This document shows positions 8,707-62,394 of a DNA stretch of 64,000 nt, in pieces (position 1 is the first letter of the stretch; every line of letters starts with the position of its first letter). A program made the position numbers and the translations under genes. Below the pieces are notes generated by a model that searched no databases, had not been told where the DNA came from, and was given only the letters and a program-made list of their open reading frames with translations. The DNA is from Zygnema cylindricum. Taxonomy: Eukaryota; Streptophyta; Zygnematophyceae; Zygnematales; Zygnemataceae. The DNA is taken from positions 62,001 through 126,000 of the forward strand of contig JBBHKE010003165.1 in NCBI GenBank assembly GCA_037447655.1. Direction: 5' to 3'.

Positions 8707-10677
8707 TTAGCCAGGAGGAGAAGGAAGACGAAGGCCAGAGGAGAGGCGATGGTGCTCAAAGTGAGGGCGATGAAGAGCCTTGGTGAGATAATCGGCCACT
8801 TGGTCGGCGGATTTGACATATAGAAATTGGAGAGTGCCATCTTTGACCCGCTCTCGAGAGTAATGATACTGAATGTCGATGTGCTTCGTCCGCTTGTGGT
8901 GAACAAGATTGCGGATCAAAGCAAGAGCTCCCTGGGAATCCGAAAAGATAAGAGTAGGGGCTGAAGGGGGAAACCCAAGATTGGAAAGGAGAGTCCGAAG
9001 CCAGACAGCTTCCTTGGCGGCGTGACACGCGGCCATATATTCCGCCTCAGTGCTGGAGCATGCCGTGGTAGGTTGCTTTCTGCATGACCAAGAGATAAGA
9101 CCATTACCCAAAAAGAAGCACGAGCCAGTGGTGGAACGGCGGGAAAGCTCATCTTGTGCCCAATCTGAATCAACAAAATCCGTAAGAGCACTGGAGCCAG
9201 AGGAAGAATATGTGAGACAAAGAGTTTTAGTGCCTTGTAGATAACGAAAGACACGTTTGGCTGCGGCAAGATGATCAGGAGAAGGGCGTTGAAGGAATTG
9301 ACTGAGTTTAGTGACAGCTATGGCAATGTCAGGGCGGGTGGCCTGCATGGCATACATAAGGGCCCCTACCATCGAGCGGTAAGTGGCATGGAGGGAGGGG
9401 GAGAGAAGAGAGTCAGTGGAAGGGAGGAGAGGGGCATTGGCATCTAAAGGAGTGGAAAGGGAGGAGCACTCTGCGAAGCCAAAGCGTTCCAAAAGATCAG
9501 AGATAAAGGTCTCCTGAGAGAGAGAGAGGGTGCCAGTTGAGCGATTACGAGAAACTTGGATGCCCAAATAATAAGTGAGCCCACCTAAATCGGCCATGTC
9601 AAAATGGGACTGAAGGAGAGATTTGACAGTGGAGATTTCAGAGAGGGAAGGACCAACAAGAAGGAGATCGTCAACAAAGATGGCAACAATGATTAATGAG
9701 GTGCCAGAGCCACGAGAGTAAATGCTAAAATCGGCATCAATTCGGGTAAATCCTTCTTTCCGCATAATGGCATCTATGGTATGGTTCCAGACACGGGGGG
9801 ATTGCTTTAAACCATAGATCATTTTAATGAGATGGCAAACCAGATGTTCAGATCTAGGGGAAATATATCCTTCAGGCTGATGCATATAAATGTTCTCGGA
9901 CAAGATCCCATTTAAGAAGGCATTCTTAACATCCATCTGATGAACATGGAAATCATGTTCAGCAGCTAAAGCAAGTAAAGTGCGGATAGATGTCAACCGG
10001 GCAATAGGAGCAAAGGTTTCAGTGAAATCTATACCTTCAATTTGGGAAAAGCCCTTCGCCACCAAGCGAGCTTTGTATTTGTCCACGGATCCATCCGCTT
10101 TTTGTTTTACACGGAAGACCCATTTCGAACCGATTGCCTTTCTTCCAGGGGGAAGGGGAACAAGATTCCATGTTTTGTTGGAAAGCAAGGCATTGAATTC
10201 AGCATCAGCGGCATTTTTCCAAAGGGAGGCATCAGGTCGTTTTAGGGCAGCCTTGAGAGAGAGAGGGGCTGAAATAAGAGAGGCAGAGGCCCCAGCCGAG
10301 TAAGCGTAAGCTAGAGAGGCGTGGCCTATGGAAGTAATAAGACTAGAGGGGGGAATTCTAGAGCGTGCGGGGTTTCGGCGAGGTAAATGAGAAGGGTCAG
10401 GAAGAGGGGAAGGCTCAGGATTGGGAAGTGAAGGCTCAAGAGGAGCAATAGACCCAAGAAGAGGTGAGTGGGACAAAATTGTGGGAGAAAGATTGTCAAA
10501 AAGAGGATCATCTTGGAAAAGAGGGGGAGAGGAGGAATTATCTTCAGAATTTGTGACAGGATGAAGAGGAAGGGCAGCTGAGTGGCTGGCAGGAGTGATG
10601 GGAGCAGTCGGGAAACAAGGGGGGTGGGAGAAGATGGAGGAGGAGGGAGACTTGAAGATGATGAGGGGGAAAAACAA
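8707..10677 (-). pseudogene. copia-1 reverse transcriptase and RNase H
   Basis: An open frame of 656 residues. Its N-terminal third is the Ser/Pro-rich linker after integrase. RT starts near WNLVPLPPGRKAIGSKWVFR, continues with DKYKARLVAKGF and MDVKNAFLNG, and has the catalytic FVDDLL. RNase H follows with SSTEAEYMAA and HIDIQYHYSRE, ending 54 bases before the 3' LTR. RT copies element RNA to DNA and RNase H degrades the template. This part is intact, but it is in another frame than integrase (break near 10680), so it can no longer be made from gag-pol translation. The start codon is only the first ATG in the frame. Confidence 0.85.
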
Positions 10678-11510
10678 AGAGGATTAAGGGGAGAGGGGTG
10701 GGAAGGTGTAACGTAGGTGAATTCAGATGGCTGAAGAGAGTGAACGGGAAGGTTTGGGGGAAGAGGGTCATAGAGGGTGAGGGAAGGAAAGTCAGATAAT
10801 GGGGGAAGAGGGGAAGGGAAGGGCATACGAGACAAGGTTTGGAGGAGTGGCGTTTCGTTGAAAACTACTTCTCTGGTGGTGATGACGCGATGCTGAGAAG
10901 GACTCCAGATGCGGTACGCTTTGGAATTTGGAGCGTACCCAACGAAAATGCCACGAAATGCGCGAGCGCCCAATTTGCCGTCCGATTGGAGGAGGTCTTT
11001 GTACCACGCTTCACAACCAAAGATTTTAAGGTGACGTATATCTTGTTTGACAGAGGACCATGCTTCCATTAGAGTAGATTTTGGTAAAGCGTTAGTGGGA
11101 CAAAGATTGCGTAAGTAATTTGCGCAAACGACAGCCTCTGTCCAAAATTCATAAGGCAAATTTGCAAAGTACAGCATAGAGCGTGACATGTCATGTAATG
11201 TTCGATTGTACCTTTCTGCAATGCCGTTTTGTTGTGGCGTCCGAGGCGCCGTTAAATGACGTGAGATTCCATGTTGCATGAGAAATTCAGAAAATTGGTT
11301 GGACAAAAATTCGCCACCGTTGTCACTCCGCAAGACCTTGATTCGTTTGTTGTGAAAATTTTCTGCCAACGCCTTAAATTCCTGAAATCGGGCAAAAGCG
11401 TCAGATTTATGACAGATTGGATACACGTGTGAAAAACGAGTGGCGTGGTCAATGAAAGTGACAAAATAAAGGGATCCACTGTAGTTACGCGTGCGCATGG
11501 GTCCACACAC
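10326..11510 (-). pseudogene. copia-1 integrase core
   Basis: 394-residue open frame beginning with CGPMRTRNYSGSLYFVTF, just after the first catalytic Asp (HTDVCGPM, partly upstream of the ATG). The second Asp is in RSDNGGEF and the Glu is in QQNGIAERYNRT. C-terminal to the core lies the Pro/Ser-rich region. Integrase inserts the cDNA into the host genome. After about residue 280 this frame is out of phase with RT, and the sensible reading moves to the frame of the 8707-10677 ORF. Upstream it is out of phase with protease (break near 11525). Confidence 0.8.
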
Positions 11511-12113
11511 GTCCGTATGTACAAGTGCAAGTGGTCAGTGATGACCGTAGTGCTAGTGGGAAATGAGTGACGCGGCATTTTTCCTTGCACGCAACCGTGA
11601 CAAAAATCCAAAGATTTGTTAGAAAATGAATTTAGTCCAGTTACAAGATTTGGCAAAGTACTCAAACTTTCGCTATTTAAATGCCCATATCTTAAATGCC
11701 AAAGTGGAAAACTTTCGACGCTAACACTTAAAGCAAATATCTTTGGCGTACTATACGATTGTAGGACGTACATAGAATCTCTTGCTACTCCAAAACCTAC
11801 AGTATTGTTGTCTTTTCTATCATAAAAAGTTACTCTATCATTATTAAATTCAGCTTTTAAGCCGTCAGAAGTGGCGACTTTCACAGAAAATAAATTCCTA
11901 GCTAGACTAGGAACAAAGAGTACGTTCTGAATGTGAATAGACACATTAGGGACGTTGACGTTGCCAGAATGAGTAGCCAACAGAATGCGGTCGTCGCCTA
12001 AACGAATCTGCATAGGAGATGATAGAGAAGAAAGGTGAGTGAACCAATCAGATCGTGGTGAAAGGTGGTGACTTGCACCACTATCTATTAGCCAATCGAC
12101 GAGGTTTGAGATA
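11252..12113 (-). pseudogene. copia-1 protease and integrase zinc-binding region
   Basis: The frame opens near 12113 and reads WLIDSGASHHLSP, the aspartic-protease active site (DSG), then a GAG_pre-integrase region with WHLRYGHLN and CHGCVQGK (the HHCC zinc-binding site). The protease would cut the gag-pol polyprotein. It lies in the -1 frame relative to gag; the sequence between them (GCTTTTC) is not a textbook slippery site, so a simple indel is more likely than programmed frameshifting. Near 11525 a second shift puts the integrase core in another frame. Confidence 0.8.
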
Positions 12114-13164
12114 GAAAAGCATACCCTTGTGGAAATTGAGTATCCGGAGTGACATAATTTGGGATATGATGGGCAACATTGCCATATCCAAATTCTGGTG
12201 AGGGAGGGAGGACAAAAGGGGAAGCTACTGGAGTGGGAAAATTAGAGTGAAAATGTGGGGAGAAAGCGGTCGACCAATGGAGGTTAACGGGGTTTGAAGA
12301 GGCATAGTGCGCTGCGGCGTTAGAAGATTGTGGAAAGGATGGAGAAGGGGAATAATGGTGAGGATAAGGAAAATTTGGAGGGAAAGAAATGTGTGGAGGG
12401 AGTGGGGGGGTGGGAAGAACTGGTGGGTTGACATGGGCAGCTTTGGCATTCCCTCCAAGTTTAGGGGGATTGGAAGCCTCGGCTGCTTTCTGCCTCGCCA
12501 ATTTTTGACAGTCTTCAACGGAATGTCCTTTTGTTTTGCAGTAGGCGCAAAACAAACGCTGCACCCCCTTAGAGTTAGTCTTCTGATTTTTGGCAATAAA
12601 GGCATTTGCATTAGAGAGATTTGGAGCAGAAAAAGAGAGAAGTTTTGTCTCTTCATGCAAAAGTTTGCTACAAAGTGAGTGAAAAGGAATGGATTGGTCT
12701 AGATTGTCAAACGAGGAAATGAAATGGGAAAAGGTTTCAGGGAGTCCTCCCAAAAGGGTTGAAGAGAGGTCCTCGTCGGAAAGATGCACGCCTATCATGG
12801 TGCATTTTCCGGCCGACAATTCGACGGTGCTAATCCAATCCTGCATAGATTCCGACGGCTTTTTCATGGAGTTAAAAAACGCTCGTTTTTGAATTCGGCG
12901 AGCGGCCCATCTGGTTTGAATGTAAGCTGCTTGAAGACGACTCCAAGCCTCGGCGGAAGAGGAGGCGCCGCGAATAAGACGAGTGCGCTCGGTAGTAAGT
13001 GACATCACTAGACGAGCGTGCGCATCCTCGTCCTTTTGTTTCCATGTAGCTATTGCCAACTCTTTGGTAGCTTTTTCTGCTGGTGTATCAGTAGAGGAAA
13101 GGATAGGAGGTTTTGAAATTCCTATAAAATGGTCCCAAATCTTCTCGTGTTTGAAAAAATGCAT
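12088..13164 (-). pseudogene. copia-1 gag
   Basis: 358 residues from the first ATG of the frame. The UBN2-type gag region (YDWSFS just upstream of the ATG, then HFFKHEKIWDHFIG, SAEAWSRLQAAY) is followed by a CCHC zinc knuckle, CAYCKTKGHSVEDC, at residues 206-219, and a Pro/Ser-rich tail. Gag coats the RNA genome. The native start is probably upstream at about 13225, next to the primer binding site: FDGQNFYDWSFS precedes the chosen ATG in the same frame, but a TAG lies just before it (about 13206). The frame stops at 12088 and protease continues in -1. Confidence 0.8.
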
Positions 13165-13234
13165 GGCTGAAAATGACCAATCATAAAAGTTTTGGCCATC
13201 AAACTTCTAGATACTATTAGAAGTGGCATGGCTA

Positions 13235-21546: not shown

Positions 21547-21760
21547 TGGCATCTTTTCCACCCTATAACTTATCGCCTGGTTGGCCTTTTTCAGTGATTC
21601 TTTTTTCTACGGACTCAGGGGAGTCCAGGCTACACATGGGTGCAGTCAAATTGTCAGTTTGCCTTTTTGGGCAGCAGTGGTTGTGGCTTAAAGTGGGTTA
21701 GTTAAATATTATCTAGAGGCTTCCTGTATTCTGTGGTCCAATGGAGGACACAGAATTGCA

Positions 21761-21775
21761 GGTTATGGGCCCACC
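21761..21775 (+). promoter_or_regulatory. Primer binding site of copia-2 overlapping gag ATG
   Basis: GGTTATGGGCCCACC begins directly after the LTR and is complementary over 15 bases to the anticodon arm of plant initiator tRNA-Met. Its ATG (21765) is in frame with gag (MGPPSMVPTFNGSGF). Drosophila copia is known to prime from an internal fragment of the same tRNA. Confidence 0.75.
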
Positions 21776-22700
21776 CTCTATGGTGCCCACCTTCAATGGA
21801 TCTGGGTTCATCTATTGGGAAGCCATGATGATGGGAGCTTTGTGTGAAAAACGATACTGGGGTATCGTCTGTGGACAAGTGAAACGTCCACCTTCGGGAA
21901 CTCCACCAGGATTTGGGGGAGTAAGGTTTCCTGCAACAACGGCTGCCTCGGCGGAGGAGGCAGATGATGGGGACAGCAGTGTGTCCGAAAAGGGGAAAGG
22001 GAAGGAGACACCCCTCACTCCTATTGCCACAGTATCGGGAGCGGCAATCGTGAAGACCGTGGAGAACGATACTCAAATGTGGGAGGATGTAAACATGGCT
22101 GCCAAGAACTTCATTCTGAGGCACCTCACTCAAGGTTCGGCCACTCCTCATTTTCACATTTACAAGGCCGAGGAGTTGTGGGTGAGTTTGGTGGAAATTT
22201 ATAGAGCTGGAACTATTCAGGAGCTCCAGTTGGCTGAGCAAAAGCTACTGAGTTACACTTACAAAGGAGGAAAGATGTTAGATTACTGTAATGATCTTTC
22301 TTGTTTGTATACGGAAATGGAAAGTGCCGGGTGGATAGGTACAATGAAAATGAAAGTTAACACCCTTATCATGAAATTACCAAATGAGTTCGAAAACTTA
22401 GTGTAACGAGTACAGGGAATGCCTGATAGTTCATGGAAATGGAACACAGTAGTCAGGATGATACTTGTGCAGGAAAACACAATGGAGATTAGGAGAGGAG
22501 GAAAGAGCATTCAAGCTCTAGCAGTAGGAGGGGACCGATAGGGGAAGGACCCGAAGAAACCTTATAGAGGGGAAAGAGATCATTCAGGGGGACAAAGGCC
22601 CCCAAAGGGTCTTTGTCATTATTGCAAAAAGTCGGGACACTTTATTGCAGATTGTGTCAAGCTATCAGAGCTGAGGCTCCAAGAGAACCGTGGAGGGGGT
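21765..22700 (+). pseudogene. copia-2 gag
   Basis: From the ATG in the primer binding site (an in-frame ATG at 21741 inside the LTR is an alternative) the frame runs through FIYWEAMMMGALCEKRYWGI, AAKNFILRHLTQ and ELWVSLVEIY. It reaches a TAA at 22404 and a TAG at 22539, and in the same frame the zinc knuckle CHYCKKSGHFIADC near 22617-22658. UBN2-type copia gag. The two stops are the only breaks in this part. Confidence 0.85.
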
Positions 22701-23708
22701 TCTTCCGGAGGGAAGAAAAAGGCACTTGTGGTTACAAAAGTGTCAGGAGAAACCGAGGATGAGTCCTCTGAGGAGGATGGGGAGCTTCTTCTTGACGAGA
22801 GTTTGGAGGAGAAGGAGATTCCTAGGAGGCAGAAGTGTGCCCTTGGAGCCATCCGGGAAGCTCCACAGGAAGGATGGATCATCGACTCAGGTGCATCCAT
22901 GCATATGTGTCGTGATGAAGAACTCTTCACTAAGTTAAGAAAGATTCCTACTGTAGAGATAGAGTATGGGGATGGGAGAGTGGTTAATACAGATCTAGTG
23001 GGATCAGTAGATCTGAAAGTCTTAGTGGAGGGTAAGACTTCTATACTTACATTCTCAGATGTACTTTACATTCCTCAGCTAAGTAAAAATCTTGTCTCTA
23101 CGTCTGTGTTAGATGACAAACAGTTTGATACCTTCACCAGAAAGGGAGTCTTTACAGCTAAGTTTGGGGATGAAGTTTACTTCACAGCAGATAAGGGTAG
23201 CCAAGGAATGTTTAGGCTTAACTTGAGTAATGAAAAGAAGAATGCTTACAATGTTGGTGTTCCTAAGGTGATGATTTGGCATAAGCGGTTGGGGCATGTA
23301 CATTTTGATAGGTTAAGGGAAATGAAAAAGCTTGGGGTAGTAGATGGCATTGAGTTTAGGGATAATGAAATGATGGATGATTGTAGTGGTTGTGCTCAAG
23401 GTAAGGCTCACAGACTTCCCTTTCCCAAAGCCGCCACATATAGAGGTGAGAAAGTATTAGATTTAGTCCACACAGATATTTGGGGGCCTGCAAAAGTACC
23501 TTCGGTTGGAGGAAAGAGGTTTATGATGACAATAACTGATGACTGGTCTAGATACTCTAGAGTCTACTTTCTGAAAACAAAGTCTGAAGCATCAACTTAC
23601 TTCAAAGAATATAAAGCTTGGAGTGAGAAGTTGCATGAAACCCCCATTAAGAGGATAAGGAGTGATAATGGGGGGAATATACCTCTAACCAGATTGAGGA
23701 ATATCTGA
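22701..23708 (+). pseudogene. copia-2 protease and integrase N-terminal part
   Basis: The frame continues from gag through GWIIDSGASMHMC (aspartic-protease site), WHKRLGHVHFDRL and CSGCAQGKAH (HHCC zinc site) and LDLVHTDIWGP (first catalytic Asp), to RIRSDNGG (second Asp). There a six-G run at 23670-23675 shifts the frame and brings a stop at 23706. Known order for copia pol; the G-run expansion is a likely replication slip. Confidence 0.88.
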
Positions 23709-25048
23709 GAGATTAGGGAGTACAGCACCAAAAAACTGTACCATATAACCTGGAGCAAAATGGGGTAGGTGAGAGGTTGAATAGAACACTAGGAGATAGT
23801 GCATGCAGTATGTTGGCAGACAAGAAAATAGGAAAGAGATTTTGGGTAGAGGCAATGAACTGTGCCAACTATATTAAAAATAGAGTCCTTACCTCAGCTG
23901 TAAAGGGAGTGACACCTTATGAGAGATGGGTTGGAAGGAAACCAGATATCTCACACCTTAAAGTATTTGGTAGCCAAGTTTACAGTCTTGACACCGATAG
24001 GAAAAACTGGAAACTAGATGCTAAGGGAAAACCTGGATACTTTGTGGGATATGATGAGGATGTTAAGGGATATAGAGTCTATGACTTAGCAAAGAAAGAT
24101 ATCATTCTGGTCAAACACTTAGTTGTCATGGATGAAGGGAAGTCATTTGACCCCTTCAAATATACAAAGAAGATAAGGATCAGATTTGAGTCCGAAAGTG
24201 AGGAGAACTCAGTCGTTCCCGAAAAAGACATGAGTAAAACTGTGATTATAGATTCAGGGGAGATCGAAGATACAGGAGACTCACGGGAAACCTCACATAC
24301 TCCTATGGACTTCGAGGAGATGGAAGAAGCGGGACAAGATACGGTTTTTATGGACAGGGGAGCCGATGAGACAGTGAGAAGAAATCCAAGACTTCCATCC
24401 ATTCCAGCTTTGGAGTTTGAGGGAGGAAGGAGGAGCAGCAAAAGGATACAGGAAAAACAAGCTGCCCATAAGGTAACTAAGCTATCTCACCCAGATGAGC
24501 CTCAGTCTTACTTAGAGGCAGTGAATAGTCCAGAGAAAGAAAGATGGATTAGAGCCATAAATGATGAGATGACTTCTATCATGGAAGCAAATACTTGGGA
24601 ACTAGCGGATTGCCCTCTAGACAGAAAACCTATTGGATGTAAATGGGTATTTAAACTAAAACTGAACCCAGATAATACAATTGAGAGGTATAAGGCTCGA
24701 TTGGTAGCGAAGGGGTTCACCCAAAAAGAGGGGATTGACTATGAGGAGACCTTTGCTCCAGTTGTTCGGTTCCCATCGGTAAAGATTCTCCTCAGTCTGG
24801 CCGCAGCGGAAGACATGGAAATTCACCAGATGGATATTAAGACTGCTTTTCTTAATGGTGAGTTAGAGGAAGAAATTTTTATGAGGCAACCCGAGGGGTT
24901 TGTGGAAGAAGGAGAAGAGAGCAAAGTGTGCAGGCTCATAAAGTCCTTATATGGACTGAAACAGGCTCCCCGACAGTGGAATAAGAAACTAGATGAGTTT
25001 CTCACCGATCTGGGATACATCCGGATCAGCTCTGACCATTCTATCTAA
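23709..25048 (+). pseudogene. copia-2 integrase end and reverse transcriptase
   Basis: Resumes in the shifted frame: TVPYNLEQNGVGERLNRTL holds the integrase Glu. A TAG at 23714-23716 is the only stop before the linker. RT follows with NTWELADCPLDRKPIGCKWV, RYKARLVAKGFTQ and MDIKTAFLNG, then LYGLKQAPRQWN. A TAA at 25046-25048 interrupts RT just before the catalytic motif in the next segment. Confidence 0.88.
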
Positions 25049-26077
25049 ATGTTTGAAGATGAGAATGGTGTCATTTTTATTGCAATTTATGTGGATGATC
25101 TGCTTGTGTTAAGTAAGTCTTTAGAGAATATCAATAGGCTAAAGAAAGATCTTAGGGGCAGATTTGATATGAAGGATTTAGGGGAGGCAAAATATATTTT
25201 GGGGATCCAAATGGAGAGAGATAGGGGGAAGAAGATTATCAGACTTACTCAGAAAGAAGCAATAGGTAATATGCTTGAGAAATTCCAGATGGAAAATGCT
25301 AACAGTTGTACCACTCCCATGCACTTGAAAAAAGGAAGTGATGGGAGTGTAGAAGGAGGAGTGATGATCTTAGACGATCAGATAAGTCCAGAGGAGAGAG
25401 AGTTCATGAAGTCTATCCCTTATAGACAGGTCGTAGGAAGCTTAATCTATTTTATGAATTGTACCAGGCCGGACATAGCGGCGGCAGTTGGTGTACTCTG
25501 TAGGAGTCTTAATGATCCTAGGAAGAGGGATTGGGAAGCAACCAAGAGAGTCATGAGATATCTGGTGGGAACTAGAGAGTTATGGTTGCATTTGGGAGGG
25601 GAGCACACTAACATCACTACTTGGAGTGATGCCAGTTATGGGGACGCACCTATGAGACGATGCACTTCTGGGTATGTGTTGTATGTTGGGGAAGGTGCTT
25701 GCTGTTGGAGCATTAAGCAACAAAAGGTGGTTGCTCAGTCTACTATGGAGGCTGAGTATATGGCGTCTTGTTCTGCTGTGAAAGAACTAATGTGGGTGAA
25801 GTCATTATTGCAAGAACTGGGATATATGAAGGAGGGAGTGCATGAAATCTTTTGCGATAATCAAGCTGCAATCGCAATCGCAGCCAATCCAAAACATCAT
25901 TTCAAAGCAAAACATATGGACATAAGATTAATCTTCGTAAGAGAAAAAGTTGAAAATAAAATTTTAAATCTTGTGTATAGACCTGATGAAGAAATGGTGG
26001 CTGACATGATGACCAAACCTGTGCCCTCTCCTAAATTAAAATATTGTCGGGAGAAATGCGGGTTAAAAAAAAATTAA
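25049..26077 (+). pseudogene. copia-2 RT catalytic part and RNase H
   Basis: Same frame as the preceding segment after its stop. IAIYVDDLLVLSKS is the RT catalytic site, then GLEAKYILGIQ-like and TRPDIAAAVGVL. RNase H has WSDASYGD, QSTMEAEYMA, CDNQAAIAIA and HMDIRLIFVRE. Ends with KKN and TAA, 24 bases before the 3' LTR. Confidence 0.9.
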
Positions 26078-49099: not shown

Positions 49100-50598
49100 T
49101 GGAAGCAGTGTCTGGTTTCGATGATGAAGAATGAGCACGTAGCTATTTAAATCCTTGGGGAGTTGTCACCATAAAACAAAAATACGATAGTACAGTTCCA
49201 ATATTGTACTAACTTCACGTTTTGTACGTATAAAATTGAATTTGTAAAGGGTTCTGTAATAACGTTACATATGAGACAGTTGGTTCCCTGTGTTAATTAG
49301 TTGGATAGGATTACACTCTTGGACACAGTTTTGACCATTGTGACATGAGTCTTTATTGCAAAAATTGCGATGGTAAAACCATCTGTGTACAAAAGGGGTA
49401 AAACTGAAAAAAAGAAAGAAGAAAACAGTGAACATAGTCACCGGTAATCGGGGAGTTCAAACAAACTAGGCGCGGACTCGGACGCGCCCGCTCATTCGTG
49501 GAGAGTTTCGTCCTTTCATAAGTAGGAAAGGTAATCATTAATTTGACATCGTACATTATGTTGAAGCTCGGACGTTATAATGTTCGCAGATAAAGTTCGA
49601 ACTTACACTGTTTGTACACTTTGTTCTATGCTACAGTAATGAACAGTACAGTACTGAGATGTGACACCTGGACGCCAGATTTTGCGCACATGTCGTGCAG
49701 CAATAGCTTCTCAAAAGTACAAGAGCATCGCATTCTTGTACTGTTTATAAAATCCTTGCGCAAATGATAATTTTCCTTTTGATACTTTCCAGTTTCCACG
49801 ATACCATTTATGGAAAAATGGAATTCCAGACGTGGCGTCTAGAAGGATAGAGGTGTGCTTTATTTCTGTGCTTTGAGTACGATTCGTCCACGACACGTGT
49901 CATATTTTGCAGTTGCAAGTGATATTTTTTGATTTCTGTTTTTTTTCTTGTGGTTGCCAACCGGAATGTCATGATTACAATGATAGCACAGTACGTACTA
50001 CTGTACTAGAGTACGGCTGGTTCAAAATGAGTTTGTGATAGAACTGAACAATGTGGTTTTAACCGGACCGGTCCGAACTTAACCTTAGAGCCTGCTTACT
50101 ATATGAATTTCCATGCGGTTAACTGATGTACGGACACAGAGAAGCGGTTTCCCGTATTTTAGGTTGAGTTTGGCTCGGTCTAGTCCAGTTTGGTTCGCTT
50201 GGGAACCAAGCGTGGGCTGCTAACAACGCTGAGTGCTACAGAGTACGGTACAAATTAAATTACGGTACATTAGTGTACGATATCGTACATTTCTGTGACT
50301 GCTGACAGGATTATTGACGCTTCAACGCAGATACCCTATTTGACCCTTTGATCTTTCCTCGTCCGAATGCGAATTTTGACGACTTCTGTACTCTTCACTG
50401 CCATCTTTTTTTGCCTTCCCTACTGTCTCTTTGAGTTAATTTTGCCCACCTAACCTTTTTGACTTCCCTGTTTCGTTCCTTTCTCTGTGTTCTTTTCACC
50501 TTTGGCCATTTCCCTTTTTCTTCTCTTCTTTCTGCCTCGCCTTTCCTTTTCATCCTGTTTTCTCTTTCCGCTTTTCCGCTGTCTATTTCTCATTTCTT
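49100..50598 (+). other. Intergenic region and promoter of the FLX-WW-RRM gene
   Basis: No gene. GTAC-containing words are frequent (CAGTACAGTACTG near 49645, GTACGTACTACTGTAC near 49992, GAGTACGGTAC near 50243, CGGTACATTAGTGTACGA near 50263). The last 250 bases are CT-rich, as expected of a leader. Confidence 0.5.
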
Positions 50599-51228
50599 AT
50601 GGCGAACAGAAATCGGATGCCGCCTCAAATGGGGGGAGGAGGCCGACCTGGTCCACAAGGTCCCCTTCTCAGGGGCCCCGGTCCTAACCATTTTGGTCCT
50701 CCTCCTCCCATGGGTCCCCAAACCCTAGTGGTCACTGGTCCGCTTCTGAATCCTGGACAGGTGGAACAAAAACTGCAGCAACAACAAAATGAGATTCATC
50801 GTCTTTTGACGGAAAATCAACGGCTGGCAGCAACACACGTGGCGTTACGGCAGGAACTGGCAGCAGCGCAGGGGGAATTACAGAGGTTCCAGCAAACTAT
50901 GGGTGTTTTGCAGTCAGAAAATCGATCCTTAGTTGAGAAAGCCGCAAAAATGGAACAAGACATTCGTGCAACAGGTACAAATGTTTAGACAATGAAGACG
51001 ATGACGGTGATCACGATGGTTGCATCAGCTTTGTGATTAATGCATATTTGGTGTTTTTGTCATGACGTTCTTTTTGTTTTTTTCATGGAAGCAGTGTAAT
51101 GTTTTTTGCTTAGAAGATGGCCACCTCTCTCCCCCCCCCTCTCCCTCTCTCCCCCTCTCCCTCTCCCTCTCCCCCTCTCTCCCTCTCCCTCGCCCTCGCC
51201 CTCGCTCTCCTCTTTCTCTCGCCCTCTC

Positions 51229-51306
<78 letters not shown>

Positions 51307-54300
51307 TGGCTTTGGACTCATTTATTGTATCTCTCTCGGGTGTTTGGCAGAGCCGATGAAGGTAGATCTTCACCAACTGCGAATGGAGTTGCAAAATGTG
51401 GTTGCTCGACGCAATGAACTCGATCAGGCGCGTCTTGCGCTGACTCAGCAAGTTCAGCAACTTCAGCAAGACAACCAGATGATGCATACCGACCTTCAGA
51501 AGCTTGGTCCTCTGCAGGCAGAGCTGGATGGGCTTCGACAAGAGTTTCAGCGCGCTAGGTCTGTGCACCACCTTTTTCTGGAAAAAGTTATTTGGTTTCT
51601 GCCGCAGTTGTTTCTAGGGCTTGATTCCACAATTTTTTTGGAGTTGTACTGTTGTAAGCTGTTTGGGGGAGTTTCTCCTTCAAGGTTTTTGTGTAGGGTT
51701 ATAATGAAAATAGTTGTGGAGCATGTAGTGATGTTTCCGATTTAGGTTTTTATGTGGTCTTTGGTGCAGCACCTGTTGTTGAGTTGCCGTTTCTCAAGTC
51801 TTACGACCGTTATGAGGTTGCAGATTTTGCATTTCCTGGGACTGCAGATTCGGAAAAAATCAGTCCGCTTGTCTTCTTTATAACTCTTGCATCTTTTTTT
51901 TTTATGATGAGAGCAGGTCCCTTCCGGCCATGATTATTGGAGTTAAAGAATTATAAGAGAAAATGCAAAACTAGAATGTATCATACTAATTTAGTTTACG
52001 GAGGACATGACGAATTGAAGTTCACTTCCTTAATCAGTGTTGTTAACTCTGTGATATGATTTTCGGCCAAAAAAAGCTGCGAATGACGTAGTGTTAGTAA
52101 CTCCAATAGCCATGAGCAGTGTTCACTTCTCTATTGTTAGCTCAATTGTTTTCCTATTTGCGCTTGATTCATATTTCAGATCAGCCCTTGAATTTGAGAG
52201 GAAAGTGAATGTTGAGCAGCATGAACAAAAGCAAGCAATGGAGGCCAATCTAGTCTCTATGGCTCGGGAAGTGGAGAAACTGAAGGCCCAGCTAACAAAT
52301 GCTCAAAGAGGTTCTTCTGGTACGTTTTTTGTTTTGTTTTAAATTCTTGTTAATATGGAAGTCTCAGGCGGGAATCTTGACTTATATACATTGGTGAATT
52401 GTTACAAAATTCGTTTTTTTTTTTTCCTTTTTGGCGCACCTAGCAGGTGCAGCTCCTACTGCTCCATATTCCGCCGGTGGTTACGCTGTTTCTGAGACAA
52501 CCTATTCCAATGGACCACTGCCCCAACAGCCTTATGGCAATGGATATGCAGTCCAGGCAAGTTCATGTGTATTACCAAGGTCGTCCTGTCAGTCACTTGT
52601 GGCTTTTATGGGGTAATTACACGTTCACGACTACTGGCGATACTTGCGAGTAATCATCACTGCACGTTTTTTGCTAAATCGTACAGTTTTTTACATGAAT
52701 ATGATGATTACTTCCCAAACAGGGCTTGTATATATTCAATTAGACAGATAGGTATATAAATGTTCGTTCACATGTGGATGTTTCAACTTGTGCAGCCTGT
52801 GTATGGCATTGGCTTGTTTTTCTTATGTCCTCTCTGCAGGTTCTCACCAATTTTTATGCAAGAATACGTGGGAGTTTCATGTGTCAAGTAGTCCATTGTG
52901 CTGGACTGATGTTCGAATCAATTGTGTTTTCTGAAAAAATACAGCAAAAGAATAAAATACCGTACCACGATTGCGTCATGACATCGTGGGCGATATTTGG
53001 ACACTGCACAATTCCTGACCTTGTTTGTTTATTTATTTTCTGGGTGGCCTGGGGGTAGAATTGGACCCTGGCTTGACCTAAAGAACTCTAATATGATTCC
53101 TGACCTCGCCTTTCTGTATCATCAGGGTGGGTTGGGGGTAGGATCAGACCCTGGATTGACCTAAAGAACTCTAATATGATTCCTGACCTCGCCTTTTTGT
53201 ATCATCAGGGTGGGTTGGGGGTAGGATCTGACCCTGGATTGACCTATGGTGGTGCTGCGAATCACTGGGGACAACCCAACCCGTATGATGTGGCTCGAGG
53301 CCCCTCTAATGTACGTGGACGTTCTAAGAGAAGGCTATCAAGTTGAGAATGATGTATTATCAGGATGATTTATACGTTGGTAGTATTAAGGTTCGATGCT
53401 GTAGAGCAATGCTCAGGCCAGTTTTTTTTCTGGTGAAAGTCATTTAAGGAAGCATACTAGTGGTATATGATTGTGACCAATTTGTGATAAGTGAACACCG
53501 TCGTTCTAGTGCCATTCATCTTGCGCCTTCATACATTTTTGGATTGTGACAGCTAGCAACGAAAGGCATTAGATTTCGCGTCTGTGGTTAGTTCATGAGT
53601 AGCACTATTGTTTGGTGGACCTGTTGTCTTTTTAATCTTCCATACCTTGCCAGAGATAGACTGTGTGTAGGGGCCTCTGGAGATATAGATTCCGTCTTGG
53701 TAGCTATTCCGGTTCATGAAGTAGCACTGTTGTTTGGTGAACCTGTTGATTTCTGTTTTTTTCGTAGTTGTGAATGTAGACTGACTTGGGGGGCCCTTGG
53801 AGATATAGTTGTGAACATACATGCTATTCAGGCTTGTCCCCGAGGGTCTAGTTTGGAAGGAGGATCTAGAGCACCGATCTGAGGGTATAGCTTCGCTCAG
53901 CGTTCTAAAAGCTTGTATAGGTATCACCTTGTTAATCTGAGATAAACATGGGATGGACTTATAAGGCCACCTGTACATTTTTTGAAAATTAGCGTTAGGG
54001 TGTGCAATGGCCAATTCTGGGTTGGGTTGTTAATTTTTAAGACACTGCCTGTTGTTTTGTTGGGAGAATGCTGCTAGTCTATTACACTTTGGGCATGGTA
54101 ACGATAGTGGGTATCATGGGACAGTATCTTGTTTTTGTTCGCGAGAATGGAGTAGGTGCCTTGTAGGTGTAGTTGTCACTTAGTTTAGTGGGAGCTGGGA
54201 TTTTTTAGTAAGCGAATAACAGATATATCTGTATGTAGTAATTGCTGGTCAATAAAAGATCGTATGTGCAGGCACTTATGTTTTCCTGAGTGTTTTGCAC

Positions 54301-57300
54301 CCTTTCTGAATTTTTACAATGCGGTAGTTAGGGGTCATTAAGACGAATTTTGCAAGATAGTGTGGACTTACATTTTCACAGTATATTTGATGAGAATCCG
54401 GGTTACATCTGTGTACAAGAGTAGTTGCAGGGATTTATGCTCATCATGGACAGAGCTGTACAGCATAGGCCTTCCTGAGTTGAGCAGTTGATGTAGAAAA
54501 TGTTGTCTTTCTTGTCATAGGTTATGTTTTTTCTTCAGGGTAGCCAGCGGTGAGAAAAGGCATGGATATGCTGTACAGTGTCGCACTTTTTTCTCATTCT
54601 CTGCAGTTTAAGACCTCAATTTAGGTGTGGGAAAACGCTCAGAAGAGGCAAAATGCAAAGCCTCTTGATGTCATGCAACAAATTTCCATTCGTCTGGGGA
54701 ACTATTTTCAAGTTTGGTAACCGTGGATGCAATTTTATCTCAACTGTCTTCACTATTTCTATGAGTCCCTGCTGCAGGTTGACCGTTTCACATAAGTGTG
54801 CTTCTTTGAAGGTACTTGTGGAATAGACATCCGCTGCTTCTTGGAAGAGAACGGGAAAACGGCAATTGCATACAGTCAGAAGATGCTGAAGCACATAAAT
54901 GTTGTCACGTTTTCTTTATTTGAAATCACAACTTGTGCCTGGTTTCTTTTTTTCTTTAGTGACATTTTTTGGTTCAGTTTTTCTTTAGATAATTTTCAAG
55001 AAGTTGATTACAACTTATTCTGGATGTTCTAAACTGACAGCGATTCCGTGATCAGAAGAGGCATTGGTACTTCTTGTTCAGGACTTGCATCATGTCAGTA
55101 GCTCATACTTTTTGAGATAAGGTCGTAAGTGAACATTATAAATGTGCATCTTCTTCAATTTTTACCTGGATGGCAAAAGTTATATAGCAAGTTGTGAACC
55201 ACTGATAGTAGAGGTCGAAGTTACCATGTTTTTTAAGTGGGGCGCTAGAGAGTAGCAAAAGAATTGCACCGAGTGTCTTTCATCATGCAGTGTTTGTAAT
55301 AGTTTCTTATGTCTGCATCGAATTTTACTGCGTATCTTTATCTTATTGAAGTCGAGGGAAGTTCTGCTATTTGGGCTCTTTTTTAGGGACGACTTTGTGC
55401 TAGACCTGATGTGACCAGGTTGCTTGGACTGACCATCTCCGTTTCTAATGCCGATTTGGCGGATTCCTGCATTGGAGGATGGCAATTCTGTTTTTGAGCT
55501 TATATGTCCGTTTGTACTAGTATTTTTGAGTTTTTTTCTTTATTGCGCACAGATGGCGTTTAAATATGTTTTCTGATAACCGTGAATAGTGATAAAGTGG
55601 CAGGTTTCCTGTTTTAAGTAGTTGAAGAGGAATCTGCGGTCACTACGTCATCAGTGTTAGGAGTTGTCAGTGCCTTTACACGAAATAAACCTGCCTTGAT
55701 TTATTGACAGGCATATTGAGGGTTTTAAGGAGCATTCAACGTTTTGTTGTGTGATGCCTGAGTAACGAGAGCATTGGTGGTTATTTGCCTCCTGGCATTG
55801 TCAATATTCATAATTGCACGGGGTATCGTTGGCGTTGTTGGTGTAGTTTGTTTTTCTTATTTGATGAAGCTGAAGTCTGCATTCTTCAGATAATTAATCT
55901 TCGTTGTTCGTACAAAAAATCGTTGTATGTTTTACTACACAATTTGGAATTCATGGAACCATACTTTCTCTTGAGATAGCTAAATCAATGTTCAGTTGGT
56001 GATATCTTGTTTTTGAGTGTAGGTGGTCTTCAACAGTCTGATTGATAGGATATGTCTGTCCTTTCTGCTAATGTTCTCATATCAGATTTATGGTTTCACT
56101 ATTTGGCTGTTGTCTTCCAAAGTTTTGTTGTTCATCTAGATGCTTAGGTAAATGCCAGAAAAGCTGTGTACATCGTTTCTTTTGAAGCCCATTCCATTCG
56201 TGTTGGTGGATATTGATTTGTCAACACTTCAGATTTTTCTTTGATGCATTAGGGGGATGCCATAGTCCAGCCACTTTCTTCACGCATAAGTTGATCCTTG
56301 TTTCTTTTGTGACTATGATCCAACTTGCAGAACACTGCATTTGTAGGTTTCTTCGTCTGTGTTAGGAAGTTGTCTGTAGTAGAAAGACATATTTTTGCTT
56401 GTTTTCGCTGTGTTAAATTGTAGGAAGGTAACTGTGCTCGGTTTTATAATAACAGAGGGGTTTCAGGTTTTACAGAAAAAAAAAAAAATTGCTTGTTCTG
56501 GCTGTGTTAGATTGTAGCAATGTAGCCGTGCTCGATTTTATGTTAAATCTAGGATTTATGGTTTCCATATAAAAATCTTATGATGGTCCTTGTGCTCGGT
56601 GCACTTTGGATCCATTGTCAAGCTCAGGCTGAGCATTTTTTTTTTTTTTAAGTTTTAGACTCCCCTCTTTATGGCCCAAACGAACGAGCCAAATCGTTTA
56701 TGTGGAGCAGTCAATTGTGACAGCAGCAAGCATCTATGCCAAAGAAAGTTGAGGTGATGTTTCGCTTTCCAATCAAACTCTTTGTATCCTTCTCCATTTC
56801 TTGACGTGAGGGCGAGATGAACAAGGGTAGAAATCTAGTAGTACTAGTATGTCGATGGATGGTTTACATGTACGCTTCATCCTTGAGGCAATGTTAACAT
56901 TTTCGTGGTGGCACCTCAGCATTTGGTCTGGCCTATCTTTACATTAGACACTCTGCTGATGCTGGGACCGATTTATGGTTTTAGTTATCTTTTCTTAAAT
57001 GAGAAGCACAGCTAAAAATTTCGTTTTTGCTTAATCAGGTTAGTGGATGTCAAGGAGGATTTAAGTAGATGAATACAGTGCAGCTTATTTAGACTTAAAC
57101 CTATTTAGCTTTAGTATCTCATAGCTGGCCAGGATGGCCATTTGTGCAGTAAGTGTCAATTGTGGTCCTAACCCTTAGTTTAATTTCTCCCTATCTGACA
57201 TCTGAGATCTTCACAAAAGATATCTGCTGCAGAATTATTCCTTTTGTAGGTGTAGCAGGCCTCGAATGAACGCTGCTTGGAATGAGACAATGACACTTTT

Positions 57301-58655
57301 TTGTCTTGTTCACTAGTAATTCTTACTGCAGACTATTACATGACTGTTTGCAGTGAGGGCTAGGGTAAGGGTTCCTTACCACCTCAATTGCAAGTTAACC
57401 TTTTGTAGGTTTTTTCAGTCCCAACCTCCCCAGAGAGGAAGACATGTTAGAATGTCTTGAGGTTAGCACATTTTCGGTAGAAATTGAATGGGATCACATT
57501 CATGCAGGTTCTTGGACAAATTGTATTTGTCATGAAAACGTGTACACTTGATACGCATGTTTGCTTAGGGTCATTATGGACTGGTTTGCTGTTTAGGGGA
57601 TCATCTTGCAGGATGCAGACGGTTTTGAAATCCATTTGTGTGGTGCCGATGTTTCTGTGGTCTTGGTCTATATGTTTATTCTTAGTCATCAGCCCCTTAG
57701 GCATGTGTTTTGTTTATTGGGACATGTATTCTGCGATTATCAGTACTTCCTATCTTCCTTTAGGGCTTTAGGCTGTTAGTGTAGCCCAACTTATTTGAAT
57801 AATGGTCCTCTGTCTATCTGCAGTATCCTCTGCAAAGCTCTGTCAACCAGAGGAGCAAAGTTAGATGTAACATTTTACTTTTTCCACTGAATGATTGCAG
57901 CTTTGTATACCCAAGTGTTTAGGCTGAGCTATTAGCTGATTGATGCTCCATTCAACCCCCATATATTTTTTTCAGGAAATTTATATAATTTTTCTGAGTT
58001 GTGATAGTTTTTATTTTTTTTCTTTGGTAGCCATGAGCTCACCTAGATGTCAAAAAACGAAAAAAGCCCAAATTTACATTCAATATGATAGAATCAAGTG
58101 TTTTAGAGATAATCTAAAGATCTTGTTTTTTTGTCGAGTTTTTTGTCAGTTTGCAATTTGCCTGTGTAGCTTTTGCTATTGCTCTCAGGTCTTCATTGCG
58201 ATTTTAACTTTTACATGTCTTATCTGCAGGATCAATCCACTTCAGCTGTGCCTACCTCGGAATATCAGAACCCTGATGCTGCATCTGCAAATTATGGAAG
58301 GCAGGTGGTATCTTCTTATGTTACTGGACAGGAGTATGCTTCCTCTGGGCCTAAGGATGAGCCTTATAGTGTTGAAGCTGCTGCGAATCAGGTCGCACAG
58401 GCAGCCAGTGAATGGGCAGAGCATAAGGGCCCAGACAACAAGCCTTTTTACTTCAATACTGTGACAGGTGTGAGTCAATGGGAAAAACCACAGGTTTTAA
58501 TTGCAGCGCAACAAGCACAGCAAGCGCCAGTTGCTGCACAGATGCCTGTTCCTGTCCCCTTGGTGTCGTCCCAGCATATTATTTCAAGCACCGTCCCGCA
58601 GACGCCTCCCACTCCTAATATTCAGTCTTTGCAACAACAACAGCAGCAAATTCAG

Positions 58656-58693
<38 letters not shown>

Positions 58694-61600
58694 GCAACAA
58701 CAACAACAGATTCAGCAACAGCAGCAACAAAGTCAACAACAGCAAATACAGCAACAGCAGTCGGGAATGTCAGGATCTGTTGTGTCACAAGGATTGATTG
58801 GCAGACAGCCTCCACAAGGACAGATGCAGTCGACCATGCCCCAATCTGGAATAGGACCAATTTCTCCTCAGATGGTACCTGTTGGTCAACAGCTGTCAAA
58901 TGTGCAGGCGCCTGTAGGACAGCAATCGACCGGCCACTCTCTCAGTGGTAGCCAGCCTCAAGGTTAGCTTCATTTGGCTTTCTATTTTACTAGCCCGACA
59001 ATGTTTTTAGCGTATGCTGTTCTTGACATTAAGACTGCGAGCTAGATGAATTGCCCAGACAATCTGACGTGCTAAAAAAACTAAAGCCTGGAAGTATGTA
59101 GGAGTCAATTTATGCTGAATTATGTAGCTTCCAGTTAATCGCCATGTCGGTCACTTAAGGGATTGAAAGATGTTTGGAGTTCCTGTGCTATTTTTTGTTC
59201 TATTTGTTCTATATTGTTCTAAAGCTTGTTATTGTATTTTAGGTGCAGGTGGTGCGAACCTTTTTGTTTTCGGTGTGCCGGAGGATTATAATGATCAGAA
59301 ATTAGCTGGGCTTTTTTCTCCATATGGCACTGTTGTTCATGCTCGCGTGGGAGTGGACAAGGAAAGTGGTCGTTCCAAAGGTTATGGTGAGATTTGCTGG
59401 CCCATCTTATGTGCTGTCCCATAATAGAATTGGAACCTTTATTATAGCCCATTAAAAGGACAGGTCTCAAATATGCCCTGTGTTTGTTTTCTCTATTTGC
59501 TGTGGTTTTTTTGACTGGCTTTACATGAAGCAGGTAAAGTATAGGTGGGGTATTGGGAAGTTAGGTGTATGAATGTGGTGACAGTGTTAGAGGTGCTGTG
59601 AGGTATCTGTAGCTTGGGAAGCTTAATGTTTGGATGTGAATTATCGGAATTGCGTTCTTTCTTTTTCCTCTCCTTGGCAGGGACCAAGGAAAGATTTAGT
59701 GGTTCTGGCCTCCTTGATGGTATAGTGATGGCTGCATTAGGATTTTTTTTTCTACTTCTTTCCTGGATTTTTCTTATGTTTGTACTTTTGTCGTTTGTAG
59801 AAGTTGACTAGCAAATGGATTTTTTTTGAGAAATGGAATAAAATCTAAGAATCTACTGAGCCAGAGGAGCACAGGAGCTTGATAGAGTTTTATGTGATTG
59901 TGGTTCTGAATTTTTGTATCTGTTCTGGGCTATGCGCACTTGTACAGTGATATTCGAGTTAATAAATGCGATTCCAGTGCATGTTTGTAACTTAAAATTG
60001 TAAATTAGTGTTAAACGGCTCATAACCAGACACGTTCGCACACATGTTTTAGTGCTTAATTCTTATAATATGTTAACTCTAATAAGTCACTAACTCTAAG
60101 TAGCAATGGGTGGTATAGCCTACTTGAAACAAACCTCAGTCTTCTATGAAATAGTGCAAAAAAACAAGTTCTTTTCTTTTGTTATAAATCTTTTCATACG
60201 CTGTGTGTTGTAACACGGCGAGGAACTTTACCTAGCAAACATCAAGTTAGCCCTACTCTTTGGCATTAGTGTGATGCAAGTGCAATTGTCCTGCTTAAAA
60301 CTTTCCTATTCTCAGAACTGCAGTCCTTTAGCATGTTGTATTTAATCATTATTCCCGTATTTGCTGGCTGACAGGGACATCTAGATTGCTATGTTCTTGA
60401 CTTATGTTTTCGTTAATCATTGTGTCTAGATTTGTATTACATTACTTTTGCAGTTAGGTGTTTTCTGACTACCTCCGCTGATATGGAAGGTGGAATTAAA
60501 GTTTGTGCTCTAATTTTGAGAAACCAAGTCCAGCTTCAACCTGCTTTAGAAGACGCTTTCTACATTTCTATGTCACTTTTTGCCTGCATATATTAGCCTG
60601 GAAGATCTTGGCGCCCGAGATTTTTTTCTTTCATTTCTGCTCTGAGGTGGATTGCAAAGCACATTGGAAGGACTTGTCAGGTTATTCCTTCCATGAGCTT
60701 ATCTGCTTGTAAACCTGCCTGCACCATGTGGAATGTAGTTCACTACCTGGATATGAATCTGGTTAGTTGGATAGAATATATCCCGCTTCAAGGCTGTATA
60801 CTCTGTTTCAGGCTTGATGCTCACAAGCTCAAGCTTGACAACCTTGTGAACAGTGCTGTTCTCATAGTCACATGCCACGCTGGAGTTTTGTGTTCTGGAA
60901 AGGTATCATTTTGTCTATTAAGCGTCTGTTCCTCTGAAGATGTTTGGTTTTGTGTTTGTTTCGTCCTCTACATAGTTCATGGTGTCTAATACCAGCAGCT
61001 AGTGGCTCCTACAGCAGAAAACGTGGAGAAAAATAGTATTTGTAAGCTGCAGGTGTTGCCTTTTTTTCTTTTTTCTCCTTTCCAATTGGTCAATCCACAA
61101 CTACAGTTAGAAAGGTGTTGGTTTTCGATCAAAGATACTGGAAGGTCATGTGTACCTATCTGGATGTTAAACTGCTTTTATTTAGAAACTGTCGTAGCAC
61201 AATGCTGTACGTTCATGTGTGACAGCTGTACTTAGCAGATCTCAGTGTCAGAGATGTGAGTGGAACTTGGTAAATAGTATTTGGTGAACGTGAATATGAG
61301 GTTCCAGTTTTGCTGGGAAACTTTCAAAGTTTGCATCAGTTTGCTTGCCTCATGAACTTCCGTAAACGTGCAGGAAAGTACTTGCTTTGCCTGTGTTTAG
61401 GGTACTGCATGAACCAATTATTTTAACTGAAAGTTTTGTTTTCCAGATGCTTTTTAGGAATGAATTTAACCATGGAAGTAGCTGAGTTCTTACAATTAGA
61501 ATGGTTGATACTTAGATCAGTTACAAGTTGAATTACAATCTCTGATTTATATTTACCCTCTTCAAATACATTGCTGAGAAATGTAAACTAAACGCTTAGT

Positions 61601-62394
61601 CTCCTGCAACCCATGGCTGGTTGGGTCTGATCAAATGGTTCGTCTATGTCAAGAAGTTTTTCACGGCTTGTCATATTTGCATCTGTTTGGAATGACGTTT
61701 TACAACTTCTGGTTAGTTGCCAGTAGTTCTCCACTTCCGTTTTCTAGCTTTTCCTGCTCATTCTGGAATGTAATTTTAAAAGGTTAGGAGAAACGTGAAG
61801 TCGATTGTATTCAGATTTGCATTTGAAACAGACAAGTTAGTTTCGGCAGAGTTGCCATTTAGGTGCTGGATCTCCCAGATATTGTTTGCTAGCTAGCTAA
61901 GTGTGTATAGGGTATCTCCCTTTTATCTTCTATTCCGCCTTTTGTGTGTAGCTAGGTGAAGTTTTAGTGTAGGAATGATATGTTGTTGCTCATGTCACTC
62001 ATGAGTACGTTTTTGAGTGATATTGCAGCCAAAGTACTGCAATGTGGTCCTGCAAATATGATGGTTGTGTTTCCAACATGATGTCCTTCTGTCTCCGTGT
62101 CTCGCATTTGGGATTTGTTGAATTGTTTGGACAGGGTTTGTGTCGCTCGACTCAGCAAGAGCTGCAGAAGCTGCCATAGCGGGAGTCAATGGAAAAATGA
62201 TATCTGGGCGAAGAGTGAGAGTGGAAAGGAAGCGTGGAGAGGGGGAAACTCCCTCTGAAGGGCAGGGGGCCCAGAGAGGGGGTGGTTCGCTTCAGCAACC
62301 CCAGCCGCAACAGCATTCCCATCATGCAAATCAAGGGCCAGGGCCTACTCGTAGCCATGGACATCGAGAGAATATTACTTACCGGCCATACTGA
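50599..62394 (+). CDS. FLX-like coiled coil fused to WW and RRM domains
   Basis: Eight exons: 50599-50974, 51351-51558, 52180-52319, 52444-52556, 53209-53310, 58230-58962, 59243-59386 and 62135-62394, in matching phases (total 2076 bases, 691 residues). Residues 1-313 are FLX-like: [19 protein letters not shown], a long coiled coil ([62 protein letters not shown]) and a Tyr/Gly/Pro tail ending [14 protein letters not shown] domain follows ([20 protein letters not shown], then QWEKP), then Gln-rich sequence and an RRM with RNP2 LFVFGVP and RNP1 SKGYGFVSL, ending in [11 protein letters not shown]. The FLX family acts with FRIGIDA-type complexes in Arabidopsis flowering control; WW plus RRM suggests RNA processing. 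The WW exon has no ATG of its own and its acceptor is phase 0, like the donor at 53311. If that donor is not used, translation stops at 53344 after [11 protein letters not shown]. Confidence 0.7.
51121..51303. repeat. (CT)n/(CCCTCT)n in intron 1
   Basis: About 180 bases of CT-rich repeat ending 47 bases before the exon 2 acceptor at 51350. Confidence 0.93.
52441..52446 (+). promoter_or_regulatory. NAGNAG tandem acceptor of exon 4
   Basis: TAGCAG precedes GTGCAGCTCC. Use of either AG keeps the frame and adds or removes one Ala. Confidence 0.6.
52557..52562 (+). promoter_or_regulatory. GC-AG donor site of intron 4
   Basis: CAG followed by GCAAGT is the consensus of the rare GC donor class. 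No GT donor in the right phase is nearby, and it joins in phase 0 to exon 5. Confidence 0.6.
53013..53265. repeat. 83-85-bp tandem repeats over the exon 5 acceptor
   Basis: Three copies of a unit TTCCTGACCTCGCCTTT, TATCATCAGGGTGGGTTGG, GGGGTAGGATC and GACCCTGGATTGACCTA start near 53013, 53098 and 53181. Only the last copy continues into open coding sequence; the middle copy has an intact CAG acceptor, but its exon-like part meets TAA. The first has lost the AG. Confidence 0.88.
53347..58229 (+). other. Large intron 5 of the FLX-WW-RRM gene
   Basis: 4.9 kb of T- and G-rich sequence without a convincing coding exon, RNA gene or repeat. All short open frames here lack motifs. A separate 5' exon of an independent WW-RRM gene cannot be excluded. 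Confidence 0.55.
58630..58762 (+). repeat. CAA/CAG repeat encoding poly-Gln
   Basis: Mixed CAA and CAG codons give a Gln-rich tract of about 44 residues with scattered Ile, His and Ser, between the WW domain and RRM. Mixed codons suggest a maintained tract, not a fresh expansion. Confidence 0.95.
59387..62134 (+). other. Intron 7, splits the RRM
   Basis: 2.7 kb, GTGAG donor after GYG and ACAG acceptor before FVSLDSA, in phase 1, so the intron interrupts RNP1. T-rich, no other gene seen. Confidence 0.7.

Follow-up and report, generated by a model that had tools for sequence, protein, structure and literature searches.

We analysed a 64,000-nucleotide stretch of the Zygnema cylindricum genome (assembly GCA_037447655.1, contig JBBHKE010003165.1, positions 62,001 to 126,000 of the forward strand; hereafter the window), which carries on its plus strand, at 50599–62394, exons for an FLX-like coiled coil, a WW domain and an RNA-recognition motif (RRM). 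Our reading of this locus is that of one streptophyte gene with two alternative 3′ ends, which would produce a short FLX protein (exons 1–5; 323 amino acids (aa)) and a long FLX-WW-RRM protein (exons 1–4 plus 6–8; 656 aa). We give this reading a probability of roughly 0.65. A first-pass annotation of the window had joined all eight exons into a single protein, with exon 5 spliced to exon 6. Its central claim, that the three regions belong to one gene, is borne out by the reading frame, the Pfam domains and the same domain order in other species, but the junction that it proposed is probably not the one used.

The exons, all on the plus strand, are as follows. Exon 1 (50599–50974; open frame, GT donor, FLX homology) contains the ATG, a Gly/Pro-rich N-terminal part and the beginning of the FLX-like coiled coil, which continues through exon 2 (51351–51558; open frame, FLX homology) and exon 3 (52180–52319; open frame, FLX core alignment). 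The FLX core ends (YGNGYAVQ) in exon 4 (52447–52556), which exits in phase 0 at a donor of the GC type (CAG/GCAAGT) and is the proposed branching exon of both ends. Exon 5 (53209–53346; given as 53209–53310 in the first-pass annotation) would be the alternative last exon of the short form, with its TGA at 53344–53346, and the proposed long-form intron from exon 4 to exon 6 (52557–58229) encloses it. Exon 6 (58230–58962) encodes the WW domain (58407–58490) and a Gln-rich linker, and exon 7 (59243–59386) the first part of the RRM from about 59260, including RNP2. Intron 7 (59387–62134) splits the RRM, the remainder of which lies in exon 8 (62135–62394) together with RNP1 (KGYGFVSL), a conserved C-terminus GPGPTR...YRPY (62335–62391) and the stop codon (62392–62394). 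When exon 5 is ended at 53310, the eight exons form a single open frame with mutually consistent entry phases (0,1,2,1,0,0,1,1), as had been claimed; the frame has 690 residues, and the count of 691 in the first-pass annotation included the stop.

Residues 1–312 of this frame match plant proteins named FLX-like by their sources, and the FLX core aligned with 17 stand-alone members at 40–53% identity with 18 invariant columns, which places it within the family. Pfam identified a WW domain (PF00397) at residues 372–399 (E 1.3e-9; 38.3 bits vs. a curated cut-off of 26.9) and an RRM (RRM_1, PF00076) at residues 563–633 (E 3.1e-18; 65.8 bits vs. 20.7), so that the order in the frame is FLX-like coiled coil, WW, single RRM. 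Compared with the RNP1 and RNP2 consensus, the motifs are largely preserved (RNP2 LFVFGV, RNP1 KGYGFVSL); the aromatic residues are present and the final RNP1 position is Leu.

The same order was found elsewhere. Three protein searches recovered seven database proteins with an FLX core followed by a WW domain and a complete RRM: P0001 (JGI), P0002 (Chara braunii CBR_g26401), P0003 (EukProt, named like a transcriptome contig), P0004, P0097 and P0098 (all Logan) and P0308 (Selaginella moellendorffii). The protein searches returned no match nearly identical to the window protein. The domains of P0002 and P0308 were taken from a precomputed Pfam column and a phmmer match, and those of the other five from a separate analysis. 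P0001, P0004, P0097 and P0098 are unbroken frames of 578–734 aa whose longest contigs measure 2.2–3.0 kb vs. 11.8 kb for the window locus with its introns, and are therefore probably spliced transcripts. Partial versions also occurred, with FLX, WW and half an RRM in P0099 (Ceratodon KC19_4G227100), the FLX end, WW and half an RRM in P0279, and FLX and WW only in P0010 and P0124 (Diphasiastrum), where the RRM is missing from the gene models. The gene model of P0100 (Sphagnum balticum) has an FLX core and a P0279-like linker, with neither WW nor RRM. Among the nine complete C-termini that we compared (window, P0001, P0209, P0002, P0003, P0004, P0097, P0098 and P0308), eight have GPxR close to the C-terminus, with PY (seven) or LY (P0003) as the last two residues, the exception being P0308. 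Because other species share the domain order, the joining of the three regions is a conserved feature rather than a peculiarity of this contig. A chance compatibility of frames was rejected on the same ground, as was a lineage-specific or assembly-made fusion, the window also being free of N.

Our literature search found no published account of an FLX-WW-RRM architecture in the open-licence PMC literature. Judged from the sequences, the fusion is real, conserved and, as far as that search goes, undescribed. The first-pass annotation had called it a non-standard plant architecture. This holds for Arabidopsis, since FCA and SSF are the only A. thaliana proteins that combine RRM and WW (PMC7673134); the fusion is not, however, peculiar to the Zygnema genome. 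Among the 120 of 164 FLX matches listed, the WW model was present in 7, none of them from a named seed plant. The absence of the tail from seed plants is nevertheless unproven, because the search scores only proteins that share most words and misses P0002, P0004, P0279 and P0308.

With regard to the RRM, the relatives are less uniform. The truncated RRMs of P0099, P0279 and P0269 all lose sense at one place (...YG), which is the site of intron 7 in the window, and a shared intron is therefore suggested. This apparent read-through in three relatives (P0279 comes from a cluster of 82 sequences) might represent a second conserved alternative 3′ end, one that encodes half an RRM. RNP1 has decayed in P0003 and P0308, and P0097 and P0098 show partial decay; given this decay, and the missing RRM in both Diphasiastrum models, RNA binding may be lost in some relatives. 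The decay or absence in these six proteins (P0003, P0308, P0097, P0098, P0010 and P0124) also hints at stepwise loss of the tail. Separately, four WW-RRM proteins (P0307, P0312, P0313 and P0315; P0313 is named Haptolina ericina) come from another lineage in which a different N-terminal part was joined to a WW-RRM tail, with a SAP domain in three of the four.

The evidence for two ends centres on exon 5. Stand-alone FLX proteins have a short tail after the YGDGY block, with a di-basic pair within the last 8 residues in 23 of the 25 that we inspected. A profile built from 21 such tails gave 10.2 bits for exon 5 read to its TGA, vs. a mean of 0.3 and a maximum of 8.7 for 300 shuffles, and between -73.4 and 2.2 bits for the fused-type relatives (12/12 at or below 2.2). 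The hexamer GTACGT (53311–53316), previously taken as the exon 5 donor, can be read here as Val-Arg codons of an FLX C-terminus, in an exon 5 end that resembles ...YDVPRGVGSHVRR of P0105 (named Gb_17540). As a donor (AAT/GTACGT) it is the sole one of seven without G at position -1. A C-terminus of the YD..RG..(V)RR type without further domains is found in the short form only, at a modest profile score. Skipping exon 5 keeps the frame, because exon 4 exits and exon 6 enters in phase 0, and the resulting protein has the 656 aa of the long form. In global alignments of the linker, the version without exon 5 was better for 8/11 relatives, although these scores are largely driven by length, as the linkers of most relatives are about as long as the shorter version. 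Taken together, the FLX-like tail, the donor without G at -1, the in-frame exon 4–6 join and the linker alignments point to exon 5 as an alternative last exon, and the long form probably joins exon 4 directly to exon 6.

The surroundings of exon 5 contain two further features. Three tandem copies with 83-bp spacing (53028–53246) duplicate its acceptor region. In the second of them the acceptor is intact, and with its use the protein would end in ...GSDPGLT before a stop. An AATAAA at 54251–54256 is a candidate poly(A) signal for the short FLX; it is weak, and other AATAAA hexamers lie at 52951 and 55684.

The 4919-bp interval between exons 5 and 6 resembles an intron in composition. Its AT skew (-0.200) and GC skew (+0.159) are close to those of intron 7 (-0.203 and +0.121), and across seven pieces of about 700 bp each the AT skew lies between -0.145 and -0.274 and the GC skew between +0.067 and +0.249. 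Upstream of the gene (49200–50300) the values are -0.05 and +0.113. By a criterion set after the table was seen (AT skew <= -0.14 with GC skew >= +0.06 in 1-kb bins), 5/5 bins at 53–58 kb qualified, as did 0/50 before 50 kb and 1/2 wholly within intron 7. The flank 3′ of the stop (62.4–64 kb) shows the same kind of skew, however, so we take the skew as support for one transcription unit and not as proof. Ten of the larger open reading frames (ORFs) of this gap, on both strands, showed no Pfam family above cut-off; four families appeared below it at E 0.02–0.1.

The history of the locus was approached through the FLX core and the tail RRM. In a core tree of 36 rows, 12 of them labelled fused (P0100 by judgement), fused and stand-alone cores intermingle and the label changes 6 times (bootstrap 5–7). 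The window core groups beside Chara and other sequences (95/95), which identifies the gene as streptophyte. Fused and stand-alone cores pair within Chara (100/100), as do P0100 and P0101 (99/95) and the window and P0164, which is recorded as stand-alone (100/99); Ceratodon fused and stand-alone cores both fall inside one moss group (100/99). P0164 and P0101, both recorded as stand-alone and from transcript sets, could be short products of two-ended genes. A single clade of all 12 fused cores was rejected by the approximately unbiased (AU) test (p-AU 3e-5), and that of a subset of five likewise (p-AU 8e-48); architecture was the basis of the groups, and the tests were run after the tree was seen. 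In the tail tree, 8/9 fused RRMs form one weakly supported group (86/70); measured by path, the non-fused rows closest to the window are third RRMs (RRM3) of moss FCA. Given the shared tail, the shared FLX ending and the cores that pair within lineages, an ancestral two-ended locus that was later duplicated and split in several lineages fits these data. The Zygnema assembly (352.8 Mb, 2689 contigs) agrees with this picture, in that FLX queries from the window, Chara and Ceratodon each detected this locus alone (E up to 0.001), and a single FLX locus would fit the ancestral two-ended gene.

Three other explanations need to be weighed. The single 690-aa protein of the first-pass annotation, spliced at AAT/GTACGT directly to exon 6 and leaving no separate short FLX, gains from the open frame across 53310/58230, from a hexamer identical to the exon 3 donor, and from the fused linker of Chara, which aligns better with exon 5 included (+57). 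It is difficult to reconcile with a GTACGT that falls in an FLX-type C-terminus, with the atypical -1 position of that donor, and with the relatives, since the exon 5 segment is unmatched in all 12 fused-type proteins and most of the linkers align better without it. We consider this model unlikely. Slightly less likely in our view are two same-strand neighbours, i.e., an FLX gene with its end at 53346, followed by a WW-RRM gene whose own promoter and start would lie within 53347–58230. Exon 5 does end like a stand-alone FLX, 4.9 kb separates the two parts, and an in-frame ATG lies at 58215–58217, 15 nt 5′ of exon 6, which could serve as the start of a separate gene. The earlier statement that the WW part lacks its own ATG is thus true from the acceptor onward only. 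The context of this ATG is weak, though, and exon 6 begins in phase 0 behind a good acceptor while exon 4 ends in phase 0. Fused proteins in Chara, Selaginella and transcript-like sequences, the intron-like skew of the gap and the lack of a recognised family in its ten ORFs also argue against two genes.

The least probable of the three, in our estimate, is an ancient duplication into separate fused and stand-alone genes, with cores made lineage-specific by gene conversion or repeated loss of the tail and with the locus in the window being a fused gene that retains exon 5 as a remnant. Chara, Ceratodon and Diphasiastrum indeed have fused-type and stand-alone FLX proteins under different gene names. 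Several conversion or loss events would be needed, however, to explain the repeated label changes on the tree, and the one FLX locus of the Zygnema genome carries both ends in order.

Nonetheless, several points weigh against the two-ended gene that we prefer. Both ends from one locus were seen together in no single species. The exon 5 profile score is modest, and cutting the tail at the GTACGT donor still leaves 9.1 bits (a loss of 1.1), so the profile says more for exon 5 being an FLX tail than about its final residues. When the tail was aligned globally with that of P0164, the nearest stand-alone tail, 56/2000 shuffles scored as high; the donor-cut tail was equalled by 968/2000 and the last 11 residues alone by 121/2000. 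Besides the Chara linker, the two Diphasiastrum rows do not favour skipping, as they tie (+1, 0). The RRM grouping is not strongly supported, covers only 88 columns and leaves Chara unresolved outside. The two-ended interpretation of the trees competes with gene conversion, the main alternative, or with repeated duplication and loss, and the ATG at 58215 makes a separate WW-RRM gene possible.

If both ends are used in Zygnema, the short form would be an ordinary FLX-like coiled-coil protein, and the long form would add to the same coiled coil a tail (WW, Gln-rich linker, one RRM) resembling the C-terminal region of moss FCA. The coiled coil would be expected to oligomerise and the RRM to bind RNA. 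WW domains of the PRP40/TCERG1 class bind PPLP-type motifs, and the WW domain here, of the PRP40/FBP11 type, may bind a proline-rich partner, perhaps an FY-like 3′-processing factor. In Arabidopsis, the WW domain of FCA is reported to bind FY (PMC7673134), and FCA to interact with FY of the 3′-processing machinery, with the larger FCA condensates that direct RNA 3′ processing requiring the coiled-coil protein FLL2 (PMC11962161). The long form could thus correspond to the FLL2-FCA pair, the builder of these condensates, with the two partners covalently joined. The first-pass annotation had seen in the fusion a link between a FRIGIDA-complex-type scaffold and RNA binding; an FLX-like part is indeed joined to an RRM, but FLL2 with FCA, as described in PMC11962161, is the closer functional parallel.

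Joined in one conserved gene, the two halves provide a natural link between FLL2 and FCA, of the kind that predicts physical association, and algae and early plants may have in it a single-gene version of the FLL2-FCA system. The original role of FLX proteins may have been in RNA 3′ processing, not in flowering. The joined form in Chara, a stonewort, and Selaginella, a spikemoss, also hints that partners now working side by side were once products of one gene. We extend this to a speculation that we ourselves find doubtful, namely that an ancestral streptophyte FLX locus made both later partners by choice of 3′ end, as a free coiled coil or as an FCA-like WW-RRM fusion. Long-form condensates might have fed back on that choice, comparable to the autoregulation of FCA, whose own intron 3 is the reported site of the proximal polyadenylation that FCA promotes (PMC11962161). 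In seed plants the tail would then have disappeared while the partnership persisted in trans, with the Arabidopsis FLX/FLL proteins as tail-less remnants. We found nothing on the history of the FLL2-FCA pairing in the open literature that we searched.

Elsewhere in the window, two Copia-like retrotransposons with integrase-like and reverse transcriptase-like frames were recognised by eye only (8707–13206 on the minus strand and 21717–26077 on the plus strand). Scans of the window for Rfam families (at the gathering threshold) and for tRNAs returned nothing.

Compared with known systems, the gene is closest at its 5′ end to FLX and the FLX-LIKE proteins (FLL1–FLL4), with which it shares the coiled-coil core and, through exon 5, a family-like C-terminus; known members stand alone, whereas the long form adds the WW-RRM tail. 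Among solved structures, the WW domain is closest by sequence to those of PRP40A and TCERG1 (PDB 8pxw, E 2.2e-15). Unlike PRP40/FBP11 and TCERG1, the window protein has a single WW domain, and Pfam found no FF domains in it. The RRM aligns over 88 residues with the third RRM of the CELF/Bruno proteins (CELF1, PDB 2cpz, E 7.9e-20, eighth of 246 matches), but the first two RRMs of that family are missing and the RRM is joined to a coiled coil and a WW domain.

The tail as a whole resembles moss FCA (P0020 and P0023), in which a WW domain, a Gln-containing linker and an RRM follow one another in the same way, and the RRM pieces of the window are 50–58% identical to the third RRM of these proteins. 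Arabidopsis FCA is described with two RRMs and with its WW domain within prion-like stretches (PMC11962161). In contrast to FCA, the window gene lacks RRM1 and RRM2 (Pfam found one RRM) and has no clear counterpart of the long Gln-rich stretch that precedes the WW domain of FCA; its own WW domain is unsplit by an intron, and its Gln-rich linker follows that domain, with no clear one in front, as judged by sequence. A distinct FCA-like gene of the Zygnema genome lies on contig C2003 (229405–238904), with RRM1, RRM2 and a WW domain split by an intron. A third RRM was not recognised there between 236001 and the contig end, where four RRM3 queries gave a best E of 0.007, in a stretch without RNP motifs; in the window, the same queries recovered each of the two RRM exons with E no higher than 4e-5. 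A further protein, P0212 (MMETSP), has the FCA layout (RRM-RRM-WW-RRM), and its last residues, GPGAYRPY, are like those of the fused FLX proteins, which suggests that the YRPY end came with the FCA-like tail.

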